64,000 nucleotides of DNA from Shewanella decolorationis S12 (GTDB taxonomy: Bacteria > Pseudomonadota > Gammaproteobacteria > Enterobacterales > Shewanellaceae): the NCBI RefSeq assembly GCF_000485795.1, contig NZ_AXZL01000073.1, positions 1 through 64,000 on the forward strand, written 5' to 3'. Numbering within the stretch: the first letter of the stretch is position 1; every line of letters begins with the position of its first letter. A program made the position numbers and the translations under genes. The notes beneath the pieces were generated by a model. It was given only the letters and a program-made list of their open reading frames with translations. It searched no databases and was not told the DNA's origin. Shown here one piece after another: positions 37,906-47,400 of the stretch.

Positions 37906-38868
37906 ATGAGCCCACAACCTAAGTCCGACAATAACGCCCATACTTCTCAGCCTATCCCGCAGGAAGCTTTTGATTGGTATGATGAATATGCCCACGGCAT
38001 CATCGACCGCCGCGAGTTTATGGCTCGCCTCGCAGGTCTTGTGGCACTGGGGTTTACCATGACAACGCTCACTGGCGCACTCATGCCCAACTACGCCTTA
38101 GCAGAACAAGTCTCCTTTAACGATCCCAGCATTCAAGCCAGTTATGTGAAGTTTCCCTCCCCCGAGGGCTATGGCGAAGGTCGCGGTTATTTAGTGATGC
38201 CAGCTTCTATGCTGATCCCCGGCAAAGAGGCGGGCGATCCTAAGACCTTGGACCCCACTAAAAAAGCCCCCGTGGTGTTAGTGGTACACGAAAACCGTGG
38301 CCTGAATCCTTATATCGAAGATGTCGCCCGCCGCTTAGCGGCCAAGGGGTATATCGCCTTTGCCCCCGATGCGCTTTACAGCCTCGGCGGTTATCCCGGC
38401 AATGATGATGCAGGCCGCGCCATGCAGGCCAGCCTCGACAGATCCAAAATCGAGCTGGATTTTATCGCCGCCGCCCGCTTTTTAAAGGCGCATCCCCAGA
38501 GTAATGGCAAACTCGGCGCCGTCGGTTTCTGCTTTGGCGGCTATATAGTCAATATGCTCGCCGCCAGCATTCCCGATGAGTTAGCTGCTGGTGTACCTTT
38601 TTATGGCACGCCAGCGGCTACAGAGCTACGCAGCCGAGTCAAAGGCCCGCTAATGTTGCAATTTGCCGCGTTAGATCAACGGATTAACGACACCTGGGCC
38701 GAGTACGAAACCCAATTAAAGGCTAACAAGGCCGAGTATATTGCCTACCTTTATCCCAATGTGAATCATGGTTTTCATAATGATTCCACCGCCCGTTATG
38801 ATGAGCCAACCGCCGAGCTCGCATGGGCAAGAACCTTAGATTTTTTTGGGAAGCATCTACAAGGTTAG
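37906..38868 (+). CDS. Dienelactone hydrolase family protein, Tat-type leader
   Basis: This 320-residue alpha/beta hydrolase carries an N-terminal twin-arginine motif (DRREFM) before a hydrophobic stretch ending ALAEQ, so Tat export is likely. The DLH triad is visible: Cys in GAVGFCFGGY, Asp in ALDQRIND and His in NVNHGFHND. Dienelactone hydrolases open lactone rings in chloroaromatic breakdown, but many family members have unknown substrates. The start at 37906 follows GGAG by 8 bases; an upstream TTG at 37885 is less likely. It is monocistronic, followed by a repeat region. Confidence 0.87.
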   Translation: MSPQPKSDNNAHTSQPIPQEAFDWYDEYAHGIIDRREFMARLAGLVALGFTMTTLTGALMPNYALAEQVSFNDPSIQASYVKFPSPEGYGEGRGYLVMPASMLIPGKEAGDPKTLDPTKKAPVVLVVHENRGLNPYIEDVARRLAAKGYIAFAPDALYSLGGYPGNDDAGRAMQASLDRSKIELDFIAAARFLKAHPQSNGKLGAVGFCFGGYIVNMLAASIPDELAAGVPFYGTPAATELRSRVKGPLMLQFAALDQRINDTWAEYETQLKANKAEYIAYLYPNVNHGFHNDSTARYDEPTAELAWARTLDFFGKHLQG

Positions 38869-38916
38869 GGGTTGCCGAACGGCAAAAGGGAATTTTGTGA
38901 TACGGGGACACATTTG

Positions 38917-39175
38917 TTGCGGCCTCTCGGCCGAGATAAATCAAAGTCGTGGGGCTTCACCCCACAGCCGATAATAGTGCTAGTTCGCGTGGTTGCTAAT
39001 TAGCAATAGATTACTGCAAAGCAACAGTGCGCCCTATTGCCTGCGTAGGCTTTGCATTCTCTTGTATTAGCCACCCCAGTGACACGCCATGGTATTTGAT
39101 TGAGCAAATAGACTCACGGCAGCATCTACTAAAACCTCCATGTTTTATAAGGTCACTGGTGCAACAGTGCCACTG
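38917..39175 (-). repeat. Dispersed structured intergenic repeat, copy B
   Basis: On the minus strand this copy aligns along its length with copy A at 44231-44440. It has outer arms CCAGTGAC (39076-39083 as printed) and GTCACTGG (39152-39159), and an inner hairpin with arms TAAAAC/GTTTTA. A remnant of the Gly-rich palindrome follows, and the perfect hairpin tggggcttcacccca sits near its left end. The 38869-39349 gap holds nothing else recognisable except the promoter region of the next gene. Confidence 0.75.
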
Positions 39176-39349
39176 CTGGCGTTCCTATTGACGATCGAAT
39201 GTTAGTTTGATGATTGCCTATTCGAATTGAATTAAACATTTAATTTACATTTAGTTAGTTGACCGTGGTCAATAAACCGCAAAATCAGAGTGTTATATTT
39301 ATTCTAACCATCGTGGGAGGATATCTTCGAGCATATACAAAGGTGATAT

Positions 39350-39946
39350 ATGAGCCTGCATCTGAAATTATCATGGTTGCTTTTGGCATTATTAATGATG
39401 CCATCGGCTTTATTTATGACGGGTAACGCCACTGCGAAAGAGGCGTCCAATGCCCAACAACTAGAGGTGCCGTGCAAATGTCTTTGGGATAAAAATCGCA
39501 AATTCAATCCTGATAAAATTAACTATAAAGGCAATATTTGGCGATGCAGTGTGTATTTAGACAACGGAGCTTGCAATAAAGTGGAGCTTATTGGCCCCGC
39601 GGATACCACTAATCCACTTAATCCGAGCCATGTCTATAGCCTAATGACCGCCGTGCGAAAAGGGGAAACACGCATGGCTGATTTGTCAAATGCCGAGCGC
39701 AAAGCAGTGCTGGAAGCACATCTATCTGCGAGTAACTATCCCCATCAAACAGCGAATATGTCTTGCAATGAGGTAAAGTCGCGAGCTGCAAGTGCTAAGG
39801 CAAAGTTACTCGAGATGGTGACGGGATTGAAGACCTGTCTTCAAGGGGAATTGAGACAAGATTGCGGCAATTTTTATCAGGACCAAAGACCACTGTGGGA
39901 GGCCTATACTGCTGAGCGTACAGAGCAGTTTTTCCATTGCGAGTAG
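39350..39946 (+). CDS. Orphan exported cysteine-containing protein
   Basis: This 198-residue protein has a signal peptide of about 30 residues (LLLALLMMPSALFMTGNATAKE). The mature part has eight cysteines (CKCLW, RCSVYLDNGAC, MSCNEV, KTCLQ, DCGNF, FHCE), suggesting four disulfides in the periplasm. No family is recognised. AAGGTGAT 6 bases before the ATG gives a convincing start. It stands alone between two copies of the same dispersed repeat (38917-39175 and 39955-40145). Confidence 0.65.
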   Translation: MSLHLKLSWLLLALLMMPSALFMTGNATAKEASNAQQLEVPCKCLWDKNRKFNPDKINYKGNIWRCSVYLDNGACNKVELIGPADTTNPLNPSHVYSLMTAVRKGETRMADLSNAERKAVLEAHLSASNYPHQTANMSCNEVKSRAASAKAKLLEMVTGLKTCLQGELRQDCGNFYQDQRPLWEAYTAERTEQFFHCE

Positions 39947-39954
39947 TGCGTAAG

Positions 39955-40145
39955 TTTCAACCCACAACCCTATGATGTTGCTGGTTCGCTTTGTGTCGCG
40001 AACTGGCAATTGTGTCGCTGCAAAGTAACTTTGTAACTCATTGCCTGCCGCAGGCTTTTGCATTCTCTTATATTAGTCCCCCCTGTGATACGCCGTGCAA
40101 ATATCCACTTTTAGAAGGTCATAGGTGCAGCAGTGCCACTTCAGG
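39955..40145 (-). repeat. Dispersed structured intergenic repeat, degenerate copy C
   Basis: On the minus strand it retains the GCACTGCTGCACC start, CTTCTAAAA, the GCCTGCGGCAGGC palindrome and the GAACTGGCA / GAACCAGCAACAT segments of copy A. The inner hairpin is shortened and the outer arms have diverged. Confidence 0.7.
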
Positions 40146-40380
40146 CATGCCCATTGAGTTTGCCGTTGTGGGCTTGACATAAAAGCTATTATCCAAATTA
40201 GTCATCACTTAACTATCTAATTTGTAATGTGAAAGTGGTAGACAGATGTTAAACAGAACGTTATCTTAGGTTTTTAACAAGGATGAAACTTAATCGTGAC
40301 CACGGCTAAGTTCACTTGCATCAGGAAGATGTGTCTTTATCTCGCAAGAAACACCTCCTGAACAATATGCGATAAGTCTC

Positions 40381-40422
40381 TAGGTGCTAGGTGCTAGGTG
40401 CTAGATTCTAGATTCTAGATTC
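40381..40422. repeat. Tandem heptamers: TAGGTGC x3 then TAGATTC x3
   Basis: Six perfect 7-base units lie head to tail. The same TAGNNNN units, including TAGGTGC and TAGATTC, recur in reverse orientation at 48401-48449. Confidence 0.9.
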
Positions 40423-40499
40423 TATAAAAGCATTACAGCAGTGCAATCCCTTGGCTAACGGGTGTTGGCCAAGTGCGGTAGCCATGGCAGAGCTTTTGT

Positions 40500-40790
40500 T
40501 TTTGCGGCCTGTTGGCCGAGGTGAATCAAGGTCGTGGGGCTTCACCCCACACCCGACCAAGGAGGACTGCTCGTCCTATCCTCCTTGGATGCTCCAAGAC
40601 GCCCCTAGCGAAGTTACATGCATTGAATACTGGCTTCGTGCTTATTCGAAAATCGCTAACGCTTCCGATGGTACATCCTGTACCCCGAAAGCTAACTCGG
40701 CATCCATGCCTCGCTCACGCGATTCCTTCAACGCCCTTCAGCAACTTCGCAGGGGAGGTGAACTTCTTTGGCAGTGGAGTTTTGGGTCAA
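40500..40790. repeat. Partial repeat copy D and adjoining noncoding sequence
   Basis: 40500-40558 matches the left end of copy B (GCGGCCT.T.GGCCGAG, then the hairpin tggggcttcacccca). The following 230 bases contain overlapping spurious frames and a hairpin of the form ccaaggagga...tcctccttgg, but no gene with a start signal. The wider 39947-41028 gap is otherwise AT-rich leader of the next gene. Confidence 0.55.
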
Positions 40791-41028
40791 TGATGGAGAT
40801 ATTAAATCATATCTGTCCAATTATTTCGTGCGTATAAAGATACGTTGAAATTGTATAAGTTGAAAACCCTATTGGGTAATGCTTTATTGCCAGAACATAT
40901 CCTCAACTATTCAGTAAGTTAGAGTATGTTTAAATTTCTCTAGAAACCATATATCAAGGAATAACTTCTTTTTTTATAGATAGTTATCTAGTATAGTCGT
41001 TAGAAATCTCATTTGCTATTACTGAAAA

Positions 41029-41718
41029 ATGCCAGAATCAACAAATACGAATTACAGTGTTAGTAGGATGATATTCTTGGTGAGTACTGTTATAGGGTTA
41101 GTGTTTTGTATATTAATAATAACTCTACTTGTTTTCTTACCACTTCCTTCATTCTTATCTTACTTTGGTTATGAAAACTCAGTGACATTGGTAAATGCTG
41201 ATAATATCAATGACCCTTATATCTCTTATATTATTGGAGATCTAGTTAAGAGTGGAACATTAATCAGTCTAAAAGATGTATGGTCATTTCAAACTGGTTT
41301 TTATCAAACTATAATTACAATTCTAGTTGCTATAAATGGTTTAATAGCAGCAATATCAGTTATTTATATAAAAAGTACTTCAGAAGAAAAAGCGGAAGAA
41401 ATAACCAAGAAATACATGAGCGGCGACTTATTTAATCACTCACTAAATCAAAAAGTCGAGGCTCAAGCAGCTTTGCAACTTCGTGTAGTGCAAAGTGACT
41501 ACAGTGCTACGGCAGAAACATTTGAAAAATCGGCTCAAATGGTTGATGGTGCTCTTGAACGGTTAGCTTTTTTGGAGGCTGAAAATCAAACTTTACGACA
41601 GCAATTGAAGGTGATAGCGGAACGTGTAGCTAAATTAGATGCAACTGAAGCCGAAGGCAAAGATTATCGACTTGTAAAAAAAGGGATGAGAGATGGCGTT
41701 CGTAAGAAAATCGGATAG
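41029..41718 (+). CDS. Two-helix membrane protein with cytoplasmic coiled coil
   Basis: This 229-residue protein is not assigned to a family. Helices lie at about 13-40 and 92-115 around a 50-residue extracytoplasmic loop. A long charged cytoplasmic tail follows, with predicted coiled coil at about 155-205 (ALERLAFLEAENQTLRQQLKV). It is the first gene of an AT-rich, operon-like set. Its 3' end overlaps the ImmA/IrrE-type gene by 26 bases, which suggests tight coupling. A membrane sensor or effector role would fit a defence cluster but is inference. Confidence 0.65.
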   Translation: MPESTNTNYSVSRMIFLVSTVIGLVFCILIITLLVFLPLPSFLSYFGYENSVTLVNADNINDPYISYIIGDLVKSGTLISLKDVWSFQTGFYQTIITILVAINGLIAAISVIYIKSTSEEKAEEITKKYMSGDLFNHSLNQKVEAQAALQLRVVQSDYSATAETFEKSAQMVDGALERLAFLEAENQTLRQQLKVIAERVAKLDATEAEGKDYRLVKKGMRDGVRKKIG

Positions 41719-42235
41719 AAAAGTTCAAATGGCTACAGAATTTGAAGAATTATCAACTCCTGAACATTTGATAGCACTTGCCAAAAATAAAGGTTTAGAA
41801 ACAAATCCTGTTAATGTATCTGAACTTGCTAGATACCTTGGAATTGCTGTGAGGTACGAACCGATGCAAGATGAAGAATCAGGCTCGCTTAAAAAAGAGA
41901 AAAAAACTGGTAATTGGATTATGACTGTTAATTCATTGCACCATCCTCATAGACAGCGTTTTACAATTGCTCATGAAATTGCCCATCGAATTCGACATGC
42001 TGCAAATAGTGACTCTTTTGAAGACACGACATTCTTCAGAAATGGTGACTCTAATTGGATGGAAGCTGAGGCTAATAATTTTGCTGCTTCACTCTTGATG
42101 CCTAGAGAAGCATTTGAGGCATTTATAGAAAATGTTTCATCAAAAGTAGAGGATGTCGCAATGCACTTCCAAGTATCCTCTAATGCTGTGCGAATTAGAG
42201 CTAAAGTCTTGGGTTATGATGGACATAATCTATGA
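41693..42235 (+). CDS. ImmA/IrrE-type metallo-endopeptidase
   Basis: This 180-residue protein has the zinc motif HEIAH near residues 94-98. The downstream Glu-containing signature EAEANNFAASLLMP supplies the third ligand. Members of this family cleave repressors (ImmA of ICEBs1, IrrE/PprI in Deinococcus) and are common in mobile elements and defence loci. No HTH domain is fused, so a separate target protein is expected. GGGATGAG lies just before the ATG. It overlaps the preceding gene by 26 bases and the next by 4 (ATGA). Confidence 0.85.
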   Translation: MAFVRKSDRKVQMATEFEELSTPEHLIALAKNKGLETNPVNVSELARYLGIAVRYEPMQDEESGSLKKEKKTGNWIMTVNSLHHPHRQRFTIAHEIAHRIRHAANSDSFEDTTFFRNGDSNWMEAEANNFAASLLMPREAFEAFIENVSSKVEDVAMHFQVSSNAVRIRAKVLGYDGHNL

Positions 42236-43305
42236 ATGAATTTATATATTTCCCTATAATTAAAACTAGGGATGGCGAGCTTCGCTGTTTTGAGCATATA
42301 AGTGAAGATGATTTTTCAAAGATTTTGCCTATTTACGAGTTGACTAAATCAAGAAAAACAAAAATGGCGCCAGATGGTGATATATATCGCAGAATGAAAC
42401 AGATTGCTGAGATCCAAAAAGATAGACCATTTATTCTTGACCTAAGTACTGATGAAATGTATAGCAATCCACAAATTGAGCAGCTTTTATCAGAGCAAAG
42501 TGGTTTTAAAGAGTGGCAATATTTTTTATTTGATCTCTTTAGTGATTTAAATATTATTCCGATGGTTCACTTGTATGAGGATGATAATGGTGAGTTTGCT
42601 GATGTTGAGGAGTTTGTTACAATTGCTTCAACAAAATCTGAATTTCTCGCGGTTAGATTACCTTATGATTTAAGCTGTAGTGAAGTTGAGCACTATTTGG
42701 ATCCTATCATTTCAAATTTAAGAGATGGTTGTAAGCTTTATGTTATTTTGGATGCCGAATTTGTTAGGGAAAAACCAATTGATGATGTTGTTGATGCTTT
42801 TCTTGAAGCGTGCGAAGGTACTAAATCTTTTGAGGCTGAAATTGAAGGTGTAGTTATGCTCTGCTCTAGCTTTCCATCAAGCGCAGCTCAAGCCGGGGGA
42901 GATGATGTTTCTGGTAGCTTTCCTATTTATGAAGAGGATATATATCAAGGTGTTAGTGTAGAGTTTCCTATCAGATATGGTGATTATGTATCTATCAATA
43001 CCGAACAAATTGAAATGAAAGGTGGTACATTTGTTCCAAGAATCGACATAGCATCACTTGATGGCAAGTCATTTACGTACAAAAGATATCGTAGAAACAA
43101 TGGGGGCTATGTAAAAGCTGCGCAGCATACTATTGCAGATTCTGAATCGTATCAACCGCTTGGTGTTTGGGCTGATGAAGAAATTAAAGCTGCAGCAGCA
43201 AATAGTCCTTCAGGTATTAGTCCTGCATATTGGATCTCTGTACGTATGAACTATTACATTAAAAGTAGAATCTTATTAAGAGAGTCAGTTGATTCTTTTC
43301 TTTAA
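42232..43305 (+). CDS. Beta-family protein (T4 beta-protein-like, PF14350 type)
   Basis: This 357-residue soluble protein opens with FIYFPIIKTRDGELRCFEH, the characteristic start of beta-family proteins. TIM-barrel-like alternation follows (PFILDLST, FLAVRLPYDL, LYVILDAEFV), and the end is AYWISVRMNYYIKSRILL. The family is named after a phage T4 protein and has no settled function, but it recurs in phages and accessory islands, often near sce7726-type genes. Its start is coupled to the protease gene by a 4-base overlap. Its 3' end overlaps the convergent sce7726-type gene by 21 bases. Assignment rests on recalled motif pattern. Confidence 0.7.
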   Translation: MNEFIYFPIIKTRDGELRCFEHISEDDFSKILPIYELTKSRKTKMAPDGDIYRRMKQIAEIQKDRPFILDLSTDEMYSNPQIEQLLSEQSGFKEWQYFLFDLFSDLNIIPMVHLYEDDNGEFADVEEFVTIASTKSEFLAVRLPYDLSCSEVEHYLDPIISNLRDGCKLYVILDAEFVREKPIDDVVDAFLEACEGTKSFEAEIEGVVMLCSSFPSSAAQAGGDDVSGSFPIYEEDIYQGVSVEFPIRYGDYVSINTEQIEMKGGTFVPRIDIASLDGKSFTYKRYRRNNGGYVKAAQHTIADSESYQPLGVWADEEIKAAAANSPSGISPAYWISVRMNYYIKSRILLRESVDSFL

Positions 43306-43908
43306 TAAAGAGGGTGCTTTTTTTGTAATAGTATATATATCATCTGAAGTTAGATGAAGAGTGGTTTCTTGTTTCATTAGTCTTGATGCCACTCCATATT
43401 TTTCTTTAAAATCATTTCTGGATATTGTTCTTATTAAGTCTAGTGAATTATTTTTGGATATATACTCACAAAGTTCATGCTTAGATCTTAAGTACTTTCC
43501 TTTTGTTAAAGAGTTTAATTTTTGAACGCTGAGAACACTTGTTAACATCATCTTGTCATGCCTTTTGAAATGCTTTGAATGACGGATATGCTTAATGCCA
43601 TCAATGTCAGCAATCAAAATTCCTATTTCTCTAGGAGTAACTTCCCTAACACTAGCTAAATTACTTGGTTCACATACTACGAAACAAAAATCAAAAAACT
43701 TTTTATAACTCTCAATTTGATAACTGAGTCGAGATACTTTATCTCTTGCCCCCTTTATTTCAAAAGCGGTTAAATAGTCTGAATTTAATAAAGCTAAATC
43801 TGCTCGCCTCTCACCAAACTGAAAGGGAAACTCTGAGCTAACCACGAATGTGTCATACTTTTCGAGGAAATATCTCACTAATAAAATTTTTATTTCGAGC
43901 TCTGTCAT
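43285..43908 (-). CDS. sce7726-type protein, putative PD-(D/E)XK nuclease
   Basis: This 207-residue protein resembles the sce7726 family. Its N-terminal half carries a nuclease-like arrangement: Glu26, then Asp37 in GERRADLALL, then Glu50-x-Lys52 in AFEIKG. This is the E...D...ExK pattern of PD-(D/E)XK enzymes. The C-terminal half is Lys-rich and could bind nucleic acid. It is convergent with the beta-family gene and overlaps it by 21 bases. The family is often paired with sce7725/beta-like genes. Nuclease activity is inference from the motif. Confidence 0.7.
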   Translation of the reverse strand: MTELEIKILLVRYFLEKYDTFVVSSEFPFQFGERRADLALLNSDYLTAFEIKGARDKVSRLSYQIESYKKFFDFCFVVCEPSNLASVREVTPREIGILIADIDGIKHIRHSKHFKRHDKMMLTSVLSVQKLNSLTKGKYLRSKHELCEYISKNNSLDLIRTISRNDFKEKYGVASRLMKQETTLHLTSDDIYTITKKAPSLLKKRIN

Positions 43909-44230
43909 TGTAATATTTTACCTGTACATTCGGACAGTATTGTGGCCTATCAATAGCTATTCAACAAGTAAATTTGTCCTTATATTATAAATTTATCGTA
44001 AATTTGGAAATGATAATCATAGAATGCCTTGCTAGTCGTTGTTTAAACAGAAAATTAGGTTCGTAAAGGAGCTCTAAGTGAGGATTTTGCATCACTGCAC
44101 TGTACCGTTGAAAACAGTTTGTATCATGAACAATAGATAGCGGCTTAATAACTATTAAACAATTTATATTGTTGGTTGCTTTTTGAACTGGCATGTGTTC
44201 TCAACACTACGGTTGATGAGTACACCAGAT
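43909..44230. other. AT-rich intergenic segment at the right end of the island
   Basis: These bases hold the upstream region of the sce7726-type gene and grade into the repeat copy at 44231. A 69-codon minus-strand frame (43985-44194) has no ribosome site and was not called. Confidence 0.4.
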
Positions 44231-44440
44231 AGGGCACTGTTGCACCAGTGACCTTCTAAAACATGGATGTTTTAGTAGAGCCTACAGGGATGTATGCACG
44301 GCGTGTCACTGGGGTAACAGTGCTAAAGCCTGCGGCAGGCAATGAGTTGCATCATCACTTTACAGCGATATTGTTGCTAGTTCGCAATGCAAAACGAACC
44401 AGCAACATCGGGTGTGGGGTGAAGCCCCACGACTTTAACA
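44231..44440 (+). repeat. Dispersed structured intergenic repeat, copy A (best preserved)
   Basis: Outer arms CCAGTGAC (44245-44252) and GTCACTGG (44305-44312) enclose a perfect inner hairpin CTAAAACAT (44256-44264) / ATGTTTTAG (44267-44275). They are followed by the palindrome GCCTGCGGCAGGC, an inverted pair TGTTGCTAGTTCG / CGAACCAGCAACA, and the hairpin tggggtgaagcccca. Related copies are at about 38.9, 40.0, 40.5 (partial) and 58.5 kb. Confidence 0.8.
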
Positions 44441-44495
44441 CTTTATTCAAACGAAGTTTGAAAGTTTAAGCCCTGCGGGTGATTGCAGATCCCAA

Positions 44496-47400
44496 TCACT
44501 CGGGATCATAATCCAACACTGGCGCCAGCCACTTCTCCGTCTCGGCGACTGTCATCCCCTTACGCTTAGCGTAATCCTCCACTTGATCGCGACCAATATT
44601 ACTCACGCCAAAGTAGCGGGATTTCGGGTGGGCAAAGTACCAGCCGGATACCGCGGCGGTGGGGAACATGGCGTAGCTTTCGGTAATGTTTAAGCCAATG
44701 GTTTCATTCGGCTTTAACAGTTCCCACAACAGGCCTTTTTCGGTGTGATCCGGGCAGGCGGGGTAACCCGGTGCGGGGCGGATCCCTTTGTATTTCTCAC
44801 GAATTAAGGCTTCGTTATCGAGCTGCTCATCGGCGGCATAACCCCAGAATTCCTTACGTACGCGCTCGTGCATCCGCTCGGCAAAGGCTTCGGCTAAACG
44901 GTCGGCTAAACACTTGAGCATAATGGCGTTGTAGTCATCGTGGTTGGCCTCAAAGCGGGCGATATGCTCGTCGATACCATGGCCAGCGGTCACCGCAAAG
45001 CCACCCATATAGTCGGCAACGCCACTGTCTTTTGGCGCCACAAAGTCGGCCAGACAGAAGTTATCGTTACCTACCCGCTCAAGCTGCATCCGCAGGTGAT
45101 GGGTGGTCATTTCGACTTCGGTGCGAGTCTCGTCGGTATAGAGCTCAATATCATCGAAGCCGACGGTATTGGCGGGGAATAACCCAATCACGCCCTTGGC
45201 GGTGAGCCATTTTTCATCGATGATTTTTGTAAGCATCGCCTGACCATCGGCGAACAGCTTTTGCGCCTCAACGCCCACTACTTTGTCGGTTAAGATCTCG
45301 GGGTAATGACCGTGCAGCTCCCACGCGCGGAAGAAGGGCGTCCAGTCGATACGGTCAACTAAATCGGTTAATGGATAATCATCAAATACTTGGCGACCCA
45401 GCACATTAGGTTTGAACGGGGTGTAGTTTGCCCAGTCGTGCTGGCAGCGGTTTTCGCGGGCAGCCTCCAGCGAGACGATTTCCTTACGCTTGGTTTGCGA
45501 TAAACGCTTAATGCGCATCTCTTCGTATTCGGCGTAGGTCTCATCGATAGTCGCTTGGCGAGTTTCGTTACTCACTAGCTTGCTGACCATAGGCACGGCG
45601 CGTGAGGCGTCGGCAATGTAAATCGCGCCATGGGGATAATGGGGCGCAATCTTCACCGCGGTATGGATTTTCGAGCAGGTGGCGCCGCCGATAATCGCTG
45701 GAATGGTAAGGCCTTCACGGTGGAAGGTTTTCACATTGTGCACCATCTCATCGAGGCTTGGGGTAATCAGCCCAGACATGCCGATAATATCGATATTGTG
45801 CTCTTTCACTGCCTCGAGAATGCGCTCTACCGACACCATCACGCCTAAATCGAACACCTCAAAGCCGTTACAGGCGAGCACCACGCCGACAATATTCTTG
45901 CCGATATCGTGCACATCGCCCTTCACCGTGACCATCAAAATTCTGCCGTTAGATTGGCCTTCGACCTTTTCTTGCTCGATAAAGGGGTTGAGGTAGGCTA
46001 CGGCCTTTTTCATCACCCGCGCCGATTTCACCACCTGTGGCAGGAACATTTTGCCCGAGCCAAACAGGTCGCCGACAATATTCATACCGTCCATCAGCGG
46101 GCCTTCGATCACATCCAAAGGGCGTGAGGCAAGTTGGCGAGCCGCTTCAGTATCTTCGTCGATAAATTCGGTTATGCCTTTGACCAGCGCATGGGCGAGA
46201 CGTTGATTAACCGGCCATGAGCGCCATTCTAAGTCTTCTTTCTTGGCGGCACTTGAGCCATCGCCACGGAATTTTTCAGCAATCTCAAGCAATTGCTCGG
46301 TGTTGTTTGAGTCTTCAACTGGGCAGGGCAGGTTGAGCACCACGTTCTCGACCTTATCCTTAAGCTCGGGGTCGATATCATCGTAAATCGCTAATTGGCC
46401 CGCGTTGACGATACCCATGTCCATGCCGACTTTAATCGCGTGGTACAGGAATACCGCGTGAATCGCCTCACGCACAGGATTGTTACCGCGGAAGGAGAAC
46501 GACACGTTCGACACCCCGCCGGAAATCATCGCGTGGGGCAGGGTGGCCTTAATCTCTTTAATGGCTTCAATAAAATCGACGGCATAGTTATCGTGCTCAT
46601 CGATACCCGTGGCAATGGCAAAGATATTCGGGTCGAAGATAATGTCTTCGGGTGGAAAACCCACCTTATCGACCAGTACGCGGTAGGCGCGGGTACAGAT
46701 CTCGACTTTGCGCGCCTTAGTGTCGGCTTGGCCTTGCTCGTCGAACGCCATAATAATGGCCGCGGCGCCGTAGCGTTTCACTAGGGTTGCCTGCTCGATA
46801 AACTTCTCTTCGCCTTCCTTCAAGGAGATAGAGTTCACAATCCCCTTGCCTTGAATACATTTGAGGCCCGCTTCAATCACCTCCCACTTAGAGGAGTCGA
46901 TCATAATCGGCACGCGGCTGATATCCGGCTCAGAGGCGATAAGATTTAAGAACTTATGCATCACCTCCACGCCATCGAGCATGCCTTCGTCCATGTTGAT
47001 GTCGATGATCTGCGCGCCGCTTTCTACCTGTTCACGGGCGACATCGAGCGCCTGCTCGAACTTACCTTCTTTGATCAGTTTTAAAAACTTGGCCGAGCCA
47101 GTGACGTTGGTACGTTCTCCCACGTTCACAAACAGGGTTTGGGCGTCGATAGTGAGCGGTTCCAAACCCGATAGACGGCAGGCGACGGGGATCTCGGGTA
47201 ACACGCGCGGTGCAAAGGGCTCCACGGCTTCGCGAATGACTTTAATATGCTCGGGCGTGCTACCACAGCAGCCGCCGATAATGTTGAGCATGCCTTCACG
47301 GGCCCATTCTTGGATAACGCTCGCCATATCCTCTGGGGTTTCATCGTAACCGCCAAACTCGTTTGGTAGACCCGCGTTAGGGTGCGCCGAGACATAACAC

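Follow-up and report, generated by a model that had tools for sequence, protein, structure and literature searches.

Introduction

Two anti-phage systems are the closest described relatives of the locus reported here, a four-gene block at positions 41,029 to 43,908 of a 64,000-nucleotide stretch of Shewanella decolorationis S12 (contig NZ_AXZL01000073.1, positions 1 to 64,000; hereafter the window). The first is gop-beta-cII of the satellite phage P4, which according to PMC9122126 protects Escherichia coli against lambda and P1, and in which Gop is toxic without beta (PMC9122126, citing Ghisotti 1990). In the P4 record (NC_001609), gop (plus strand, 133 amino acids (aa)) is followed by beta (plus strand) and by cII, which is on the minus strand and convergent. 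The passage of PMC11291487 that names gop beta cll does so in a list and says nothing further. The second system is PD-lambda-2, described in PMC9519451 as a HigB-like protein, a fusion of a helix-turn-helix (HTH) domain with a peptidase, and a protein related to a P4 antitoxin. On its own the fusion protein, PD-lambda-2B, is toxic, an effect that the preceding gene relieves, and the beta-like PD-lambda-2 C is required for defense, not for neutralization (PMC9519451). The passages on beta in PMC9122126 and PMC9519451 name no biochemical activity for it.

Here, we show that the block combines a membrane protein, a lone M78 protease, a beta protein and a converging cII-like protein in an order that recurs in many bacteria. 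The best reading is that it is a protease-bearing second arrangement of the gop-beta-cII family, with PD-lambda-2 further off. For this four-gene arrangement we found no paper in one open-access library (preprints not covered). The first-pass annotation of the window had treated the block as one acquired unit, which our results bear out, and had not foreseen the kinship with P4 gop-beta-cII.

Results

The block consists of four open reading frames (ORFs):

41,029 to 41,718, plus strand: gene 1, 229 aa, a two-transmembrane-segment membrane protein with a C-terminal coiled-coil-like tail; proposed Gop-like effector
41,693 to 42,235, plus strand: gene 2, 180 aa, a lone M78 (ImmA/IrrE) metalloprotease (PF06114)
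42,232 to 43,305, plus strand: gene 3, 357 aa, a Beta protein (PF14350)
43,285 to 43,908, minus strand: gene 4, 207 aa, sce7726/cII family, a PD-(D/E)XK-like putative nuclease, convergent with gene 3

The first-pass annotation described three chained plus-strand genes with a converging fourth, at about one-third GC in richer surroundings. The ORF list agrees exactly with that layout, with overlaps of 26 bases (genes 1 and 2), 4 bases (genes 2 and 3) and 21 bases (genes 3 and 4). The measured GC content of the block is 34.9% (0.349), against a mean of 0.475 (standard deviation 0.035, minimum 0.344) over 612 windows of equal length in the 64 kb, and GC at third codon positions is 0.24-0.26 in the block genes against 0.47-0.63 in three adjoining genes. 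A terminator search at the block found none, promoter-like sites there are at shuffle level (13 vs 13.4), no Rfam family matches at 38,500 to 45,000, and no tRNA was found in the window.

The three families named at first pass, M78, beta and sce7726, are recovered by Pfam and NCBIfam scans, with matches of gene 2 to PF06114 Peptidase_M78 (2.3e-23), of gene 3 to PF14350 Beta_protein (9.8e-37) and of gene 4 to NCBIfam sce7726 (NF033832, 1.6e-35). Among the PADLOC models, gene 2 matches capP (4.3e-30), gene 3 matches beta (3.8e-47) and PD-Lambda-2_C (PDLC03984, 1.2e-12), and gene 4 matches cll (4.8e-21). On sequence similarity, genes 3 and 4 are homologues of P4 beta and cII in the same convergent layout. 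P4 beta is 27.0% identical to gene 3 over 98% coverage (E 4e-26; tblastn, complete P4 genome, annotated phage records), a separate comparison gave 27% identity at E 3.4e-33, and gene 4 is 32% identical to P4 cII over 101 aa (E 4e-12).

The residues that would form the active sites are kept. In gene 2, H94, E95, H98 and E124 are invariant in 57 of 57 aligned homologues, so that the HExxH motif read at first pass, with the downstream Glu that completes the M78 hallmark, is found in all of them. The solved structures nearest to gene 2 by sequence are CapP and IrrE. No fused HTH domain was found in it, and no HTH family was matched in the Pfam and NCBIfam scans. E26, D37, E50, K52, D56 and Q64 of gene 4 are invariant in all 61 aligned proteins. 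The acidic residues and ExK thus stand in the expected order in 61 of 61, and the first-pass pattern E26/D37/E50-x-K52 holds at all four positions, an order that we take to fit the PD-(D/E)XK superfamily. There is also a weak MmcB-like match of 19.9 bits, under the Pfam cut-off of 22. In PMC13414232, an sce7726 protein appears as a table entry among strain-specific loci. Beta has Y6, E16, W95, P110, P215, D251, R270, D272 and W313 invariant in 69 aligned proteins. By eye, its alignment has strand-like stretches that end in the conserved charged residues D70, D174, D251, R270 and D272, a pattern that suggests a barrel enzyme. Sequence comparison linked no solved structure convincingly to beta (best E 0.061) or to gene 4 (best E 0.14). 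Beta was matched in 2 of 72,556 plasmid records and in 4 of 50,697 named phage records, three of which are P4.

Gene 1 has hydrophobic peaks at residues 21-39 and 94-112, and a coiled coil is predicted on the basis of its sequence together with coiled-coil matches that reach no cut-off. It has no family match above the curated cut-off, and no match to a HigB model, in the Pfam and NCBIfam scans. Its sole invariant residue is Tyr92, where the second membrane helix begins (40 of 40 aligned). Direct homology with Gop was considered and is not supported (hhalign probability 8%, no BLAST match, nothing past the phmmer filters). In three loci, L018 (Billgrantia), L019 (Vreelandella) and L156, gene 1 is broken into two ORFs while M78, beta and cII are intact; the L156 beta is identical to that of L019. 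Such a split might be what is expected of the costly part of a system, and assembly error is possible.

The order of the genes is conserved well beyond Shewanella. Using a profile built from an alignment of 19 beta proteins, we surveyed 94 stretches (50 loci in genome contigs, 41 in viral contigs, P4, Pasteurella phage Pmp11 and the window) and found a beta ORF in 93 of them. M78 lies upstream of beta in 57 of the 93 loci and is absent in 36, a ratio that is not a prevalence because the search alignment held relatives of the window and only two P4-type proteins. A relative of gene 1 precedes M78 in all 57, the HExxH motif is present in all 57, and cII is found within 2.5 kb in 50. Among the 36 loci without M78, none has a relative of gene 1 and 34 have cII within 2.5 kb. 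In the loci surveyed, the order gene 1-M78-beta is strict and the neighborhood conserved, which bears out the co-occurrence asked about at first pass. Several loci are incomplete: L056 and L059, among the 57, have a partial beta ORF and a gap of more than 300 bases; among the 36, L072 is cut by a contig end just there, L060 and L061 hold part of beta only, and L099 has neither partner. The M78 profile finds 58 ORFs in the 94 stretches, 57 of them directly or closely before beta and one (L051) before a beta that is cut by a contig end. Where M78 is present, cII is convergent in 48 of 50 loci and its 3' end overlaps that of beta in 47 of the 48; where it is absent, the figures are 33 of 34 and 21 of 33. 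In 25 of the 36 loci without M78, a small ORF (111-161 aa, one or more hydrophobic peaks) has its end no more than 60 bases from beta, and a similar small hydrophobic ORF with a longer overlap precedes beta in L003 and L094.

A less biased sample was obtained from PF14350 matches in genomes drawn from the class (8 of 369) and from the phylum (13 of 398), with three genomes in both. After fragments and overlapping loci (L146, L147, L158 and L160) were dropped, it comprised 19 loci including the window. A lone short M78 follows a membrane protein in seven of them, five with cII. Seven others have an M78 protein of 403-472 aa, assigned by length to the size of the PD-lambda-2 fusion, three with cII. 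One has a 294-aa M78 with cII, and four have beta and cII only, bringing the totals to 15 of 19 for M78 and 13 of 19 for cII. The four beta-plus-cII loci are scattered on the beta tree and may be decayed. The third arrangement, with the large M78, resembles PD-lambda-2, and in L140, L143 and L149 the first ORF has 85-87 aa and is HigB-like by eye. We also observed a convergent cII beside the PD-lambda-2-sized M78 and beta in L140, L141 and L148; cII goes unmentioned in the passages on PD-lambda-2 in PMC9519451. One genome (G166, contig C224; L145-L147) carries at least two M78-beta units in tandem.

A maximum-likelihood tree of 85 beta proteins, from which near-copies were dropped so that Shewanella morhuae L012 (88% identical) stands for the window, keeps the P4-type and four-gene arrangements largely apart. 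The tree is rooted merely for display, and long branches lead to five of its rows. One branch (support 99/93) separates all eight PD-lambda-2-like rows, named by M78 size, and three of the four beta-plus-cII rows from the P4-type and four-gene rows. Of the 52 four-gene rows, 48 form one group (support 95/90) that spans seven phyla, namely Pseudomonadota, Elusimicrobiota, Planctomycetota, Omnitrophota, Bacillota, Bacteroidota and Melainabacteria; four divergent rows group with the P4 type. The labels change little along the tree: 2 times for four-gene rows against 26.5 in shuffles, and 6 against 30.2 for all labels.

At the local level, the module is shared with S. morhuae:

40,959 to 44,014, no strand assigned: module shared with Shewanella morhuae, 87.7% identity over 3,059 aligned bases

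The S. morhuae copy is at another chromosomal site, where the other matches are copies of the flanking repeat only and are not collinear. Beta was matched in 2 of the 60 relatives searched, the S12 genome included. The flanks of the DLH-metH interval are kept in three close relatives, with different genes between them in each; in relative G024, flank identity is 81% next to DLH and 91% next to metH. The module is missing from this interval in all three and its composition is foreign, the opposite of the ordinary block at the same place in all relatives that the first-pass annotation named as refuting its reading. Together, these results support one conserved unit that was horizontally acquired.

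The arrangement also occurs in E. coli. A copy from Enterobacter matched 72 of 5,426 E. coli genomes, none over 80% of it, and among the matches listed (30 E. coli records), beta, ImmA/IrrE and sce7726 are annotated under the match. Four E. coli regions each have a hypothetical gene before ImmA/IrrE; three of these are one island beside type I restriction-modification genes, and the fourth is near tRNA-Leu, an integrase and a methyltransferase-helicase pair. The DNA of the Enterobacter copy gave no match to named phages. Around 39 genome loci, we scanned 118 of the 126 proteins within 3 kb (the longest and those past a residue limit were dropped). Among the best 25 of 156 Pfam families, each was matched by at most 4 of the 118 proteins (phage integrase 4, UvrD helicase 3, Eco57I methylase 2), and among the best 25 of 128 PADLOC families, none by more than 3.

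The block in the window is flanked on both sides by copies of an interspersed repeat family:

38,914 to 39,192, plus strand: left-flank repeat copy, head outward
39,956 to 40,160, plus strand: left-flank repeat copy, head outward
40,451 to 40,781, plus strand: left-flank repeat copy, head outward
44,214 to 44,440, minus strand: right-flank inverted copy of the same family, head outward

The repeat is about 270 bases long and hairpin-rich, and as a single strand it folds better than shuffles (z -4.2). One copy has 34 matches in its own genome. Besides the window, 12 further sites in that genome were taken (L163-L174, on contigs C47, C51, C54, C63, C68, C70 and C76; two clusters of short matches only were omitted), and at 9 of the 13 sites a head-out inverted pair encloses ORFs that are mostly low in GC. 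Recognized cargo comprises the four-gene module itself, a DNA methylase at L165, a dGTPase at L173, a NACHT protein at L170 that no PADLOC model matches and, at L169, the reverse transcriptase of a type VI retron together with an HTH gene. The proteins scanned at the remaining sites are orphans or DUF2750 and SUKH proteins. The repeat was found in 56 of 60 Shewanella genomes, with at most 12 candidates scored per genome for many. Among 150 matches listed from 23 genomes, 18 of the 20 pairs of neighboring copies that lie 600-8000 bases apart are head-out inverted and none is head-in, giving a binomial value of 1.6e-9, which overstates the bias because relatives share slots. At two slots, DLH-metH and one beside a purC-like gene (named by eye), cargo differs between relatives at the same site. 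The retron cargo was found by blastn in none of eight relatives at the purC-like slot, where repeat copies are kept in five of the eight and none is shown in three.

Sixteen inverted pairs in other genomes have interiors that average 36% GC (range 30-47%). Their cargo was scanned with Pfam for 15 of the 16 and, for the sixteenth, as L134; PADLOC was run on 10 of them and on L134. Among the matches are KAP NTPases belonging to candidate family PDC-S20 (L217, L219), an HSDR_N protein (L214), NERD proteins (L223, L228), the first part of a SIR2 protein resembling Dsr2 (L213), PDC-S42 (L227) and AAA/OLD-type ATPases (L226, L134). The cargo of L215, L218 and L222 gave no matches in the scans run, and that of L216, L220 and L221 gave domains of unknown function only. 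Any enrichment in defense genes is an impression only, made without ordinary accessory genes as controls. Among the cargo proteins scanned, no family of transposases or integrases was found, and no target-site duplications were seen by eye in the outer flanks of the cassettes.

Three further observations concern cargo. At the edge of L228, an ORF outside the scanned set is IS110 transposase-like by eye. In the DLH-metH interval of relative G063 (L134, 8,432 to 10,366), an AriA/OLD-like AAA ATPase (PADLOC AriA, 3e-23) lies between the same repeats. In the window, a 198-aa gene without a Pfam match lies between two repeat copies at 39,350 to 39,946; it is matched in 4 of 97 genomes of the genus, its own included and the other three weakly, and is possibly another cargo gene.

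We therefore put forward, as a proposal that is evenly balanced between right and wrong, that Shewanella carries genus-wide cassettes, in which mostly AT-rich modules of about 1-4.5 kb, many with matches to defense families, are bounded by head-out repeats and exchanged for one another at fixed slots between genes. One such cargo would be the four-gene module, and the cassettes would be a dispersed counterpart of defense islands, moved via the repeats. Several results weigh against this proposal: at 4 of the 13 sites in the S12 genome the copies do not form a clear inverted pair, of the nine pairs counted three (L168, L170 and L173) have a short or weak copy on one side, 2 of the 20 neighboring pairs are direct, and all four pairs less than 600 bases apart are direct. 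We found nothing in the literature searched on a repeat-bounded Shewanella system; in its cited literature, the review PMC10969869 includes a Shewanella mobile-element paper. The repeat slots may be more novel than the four-gene module.

Discussion

The first-pass annotation proposed a four-part defense system with the membrane protein as a sensor. A conserved, acquired unit is what we find, and defense is its most likely role, as its P4 and PD-lambda-2 kin defend. We suggest that the block is probably an anti-phage module that acts by abortive infection, with gene 1 as effector, beta as restraint, the protease as switch and, as a partner of nuclease type, the cII-like protein. Gene 1 would be a membrane effector that is kept harmless by beta, perhaps together with the protease. 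Infection would upset this assembly, and the protease would then cut gene 1 or beta. The membrane would be damaged and the infected cell would stop before phage release. In parallel, the cII-like protein could act as a nuclease or as the part that detects DNA. The membrane protein is more likely an effector than a sensor because of the analogy with Gop.

The main rival takes its roles from PD-lambda-2. Here, the M78 protease would be the toxic effector, gene 1 its membrane tether or inhibitor, and beta the sensor of the phage. We regard this as possible and rather doubtful. PD-lambda-2B is toxic alone and rescued by the gene before it, with C serving defense and not neutralization (PMC9519451), and in all nine comparisons with the window gene 2 is better conserved than the other three proteins. 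However, P4 has no M78 protein and owes its toxicity to Gop, which is small and membrane-bound, while gene 2 has no fused DNA-binding part that we could find and gene 1 lacks a HigB match. An addiction (toxin-antitoxin) module that holds mobile DNA, with phage defense a side effect or absent, is unlikely. Though 13 of the 41 viral contigs in which beta was matched carry the four-gene type, as does an island with an integrase, the 3-kb unit common to the window and S. morhuae has no integrase or plasmid gene, the P4 and PD-lambda-2 relatives defend, and the convergent cII, unneeded for addiction, is kept in 50 of 57 loci. That unrelated accessory genes came together by chance, as the different contents of the DLH-metH interval in each of three relatives could suggest, is already refuted by the same order in seven phyla and at another site in S. 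morhuae.

We return to the abortive-infection reading with gene 1 as effector, since some of our results weigh against it. Gene 1 and P4 Gop are alike in topology only (8% probability in the profile comparison). Gene 1 is the least conserved protein in six of nine comparisons with the window and ties with gene 4 in one (L037); it is not always the fastest-changing, being more conserved than gene 4 in the other two (L017 and L043). In PD-lambda-2, toxicity comes from the M78 protein, and neutralization does not require the beta-like protein (PMC9519451). The cII gene is absent in 7 of 57 loci (five alphaproteobacterial, two on viral contigs). A common defense neighborhood was not seen among the 118 proteins flanking the 39 loci; scattered defense genes may still be near them, because the families are the best 25 only, without matches per protein. 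No experiment on the four-gene arrangement was found in the literature covered.

The four-gene arrangement links P4 gop-beta-cII and PD-lambda-2, which are otherwise unlike each other. All share beta, which is joined in many loci by a convergent cII, and the upstream toxin or protease part is exchanged. Thus, beta is the thing to study, and the four-gene arrangement offers a widespread system for doing so. In addition, the repeat-bounded slots, if they are true elements, would explain how single small defense modules spread in Shewanella outside islands and prophages, and would provide a sequence handle for finding new ones.

Among known systems, CapP of CBASS and IrrE have an M78 protease in common with the block and are the solved structures nearest in sequence to gene 2. 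CapP and IrrE act on HTH repressors, whereas no HTH gene was matched within the module in the Pfam and NCBIfam scans. PD-lambda-2 shares the succession of an M78 protease and a beta-like protein, and gene 3 matches its C component at 1.2e-12. It differs in that its peptidase is fused to an Xre HTH domain, whereas gene 2 has 180 aa and no HTH match, and in that it starts with a HigB-like gene and has no membrane protein, whereas the block starts with a 229-aa membrane protein. The betas that stand beside an M78 of PD-lambda-2 size are on another side of the tree, from which PD-lambda-2 itself is absent. The gop-beta-cII system differs from the block in lacking M78, which here lies between the membrane protein and beta, in its Gop of 133 aa, which has no detectable relation to gene 1, and in a longer cII, whose median length is 269 aa where M78 is lacking and 207 aa where it is present. 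Because the M78 gene, and no gop homologue, is directly before beta in the window, the module is a relative and not a member of gop-beta-cII. What the two have in common is homologous beta and converging cII genes, with a gene for a membrane protein upstream in both.

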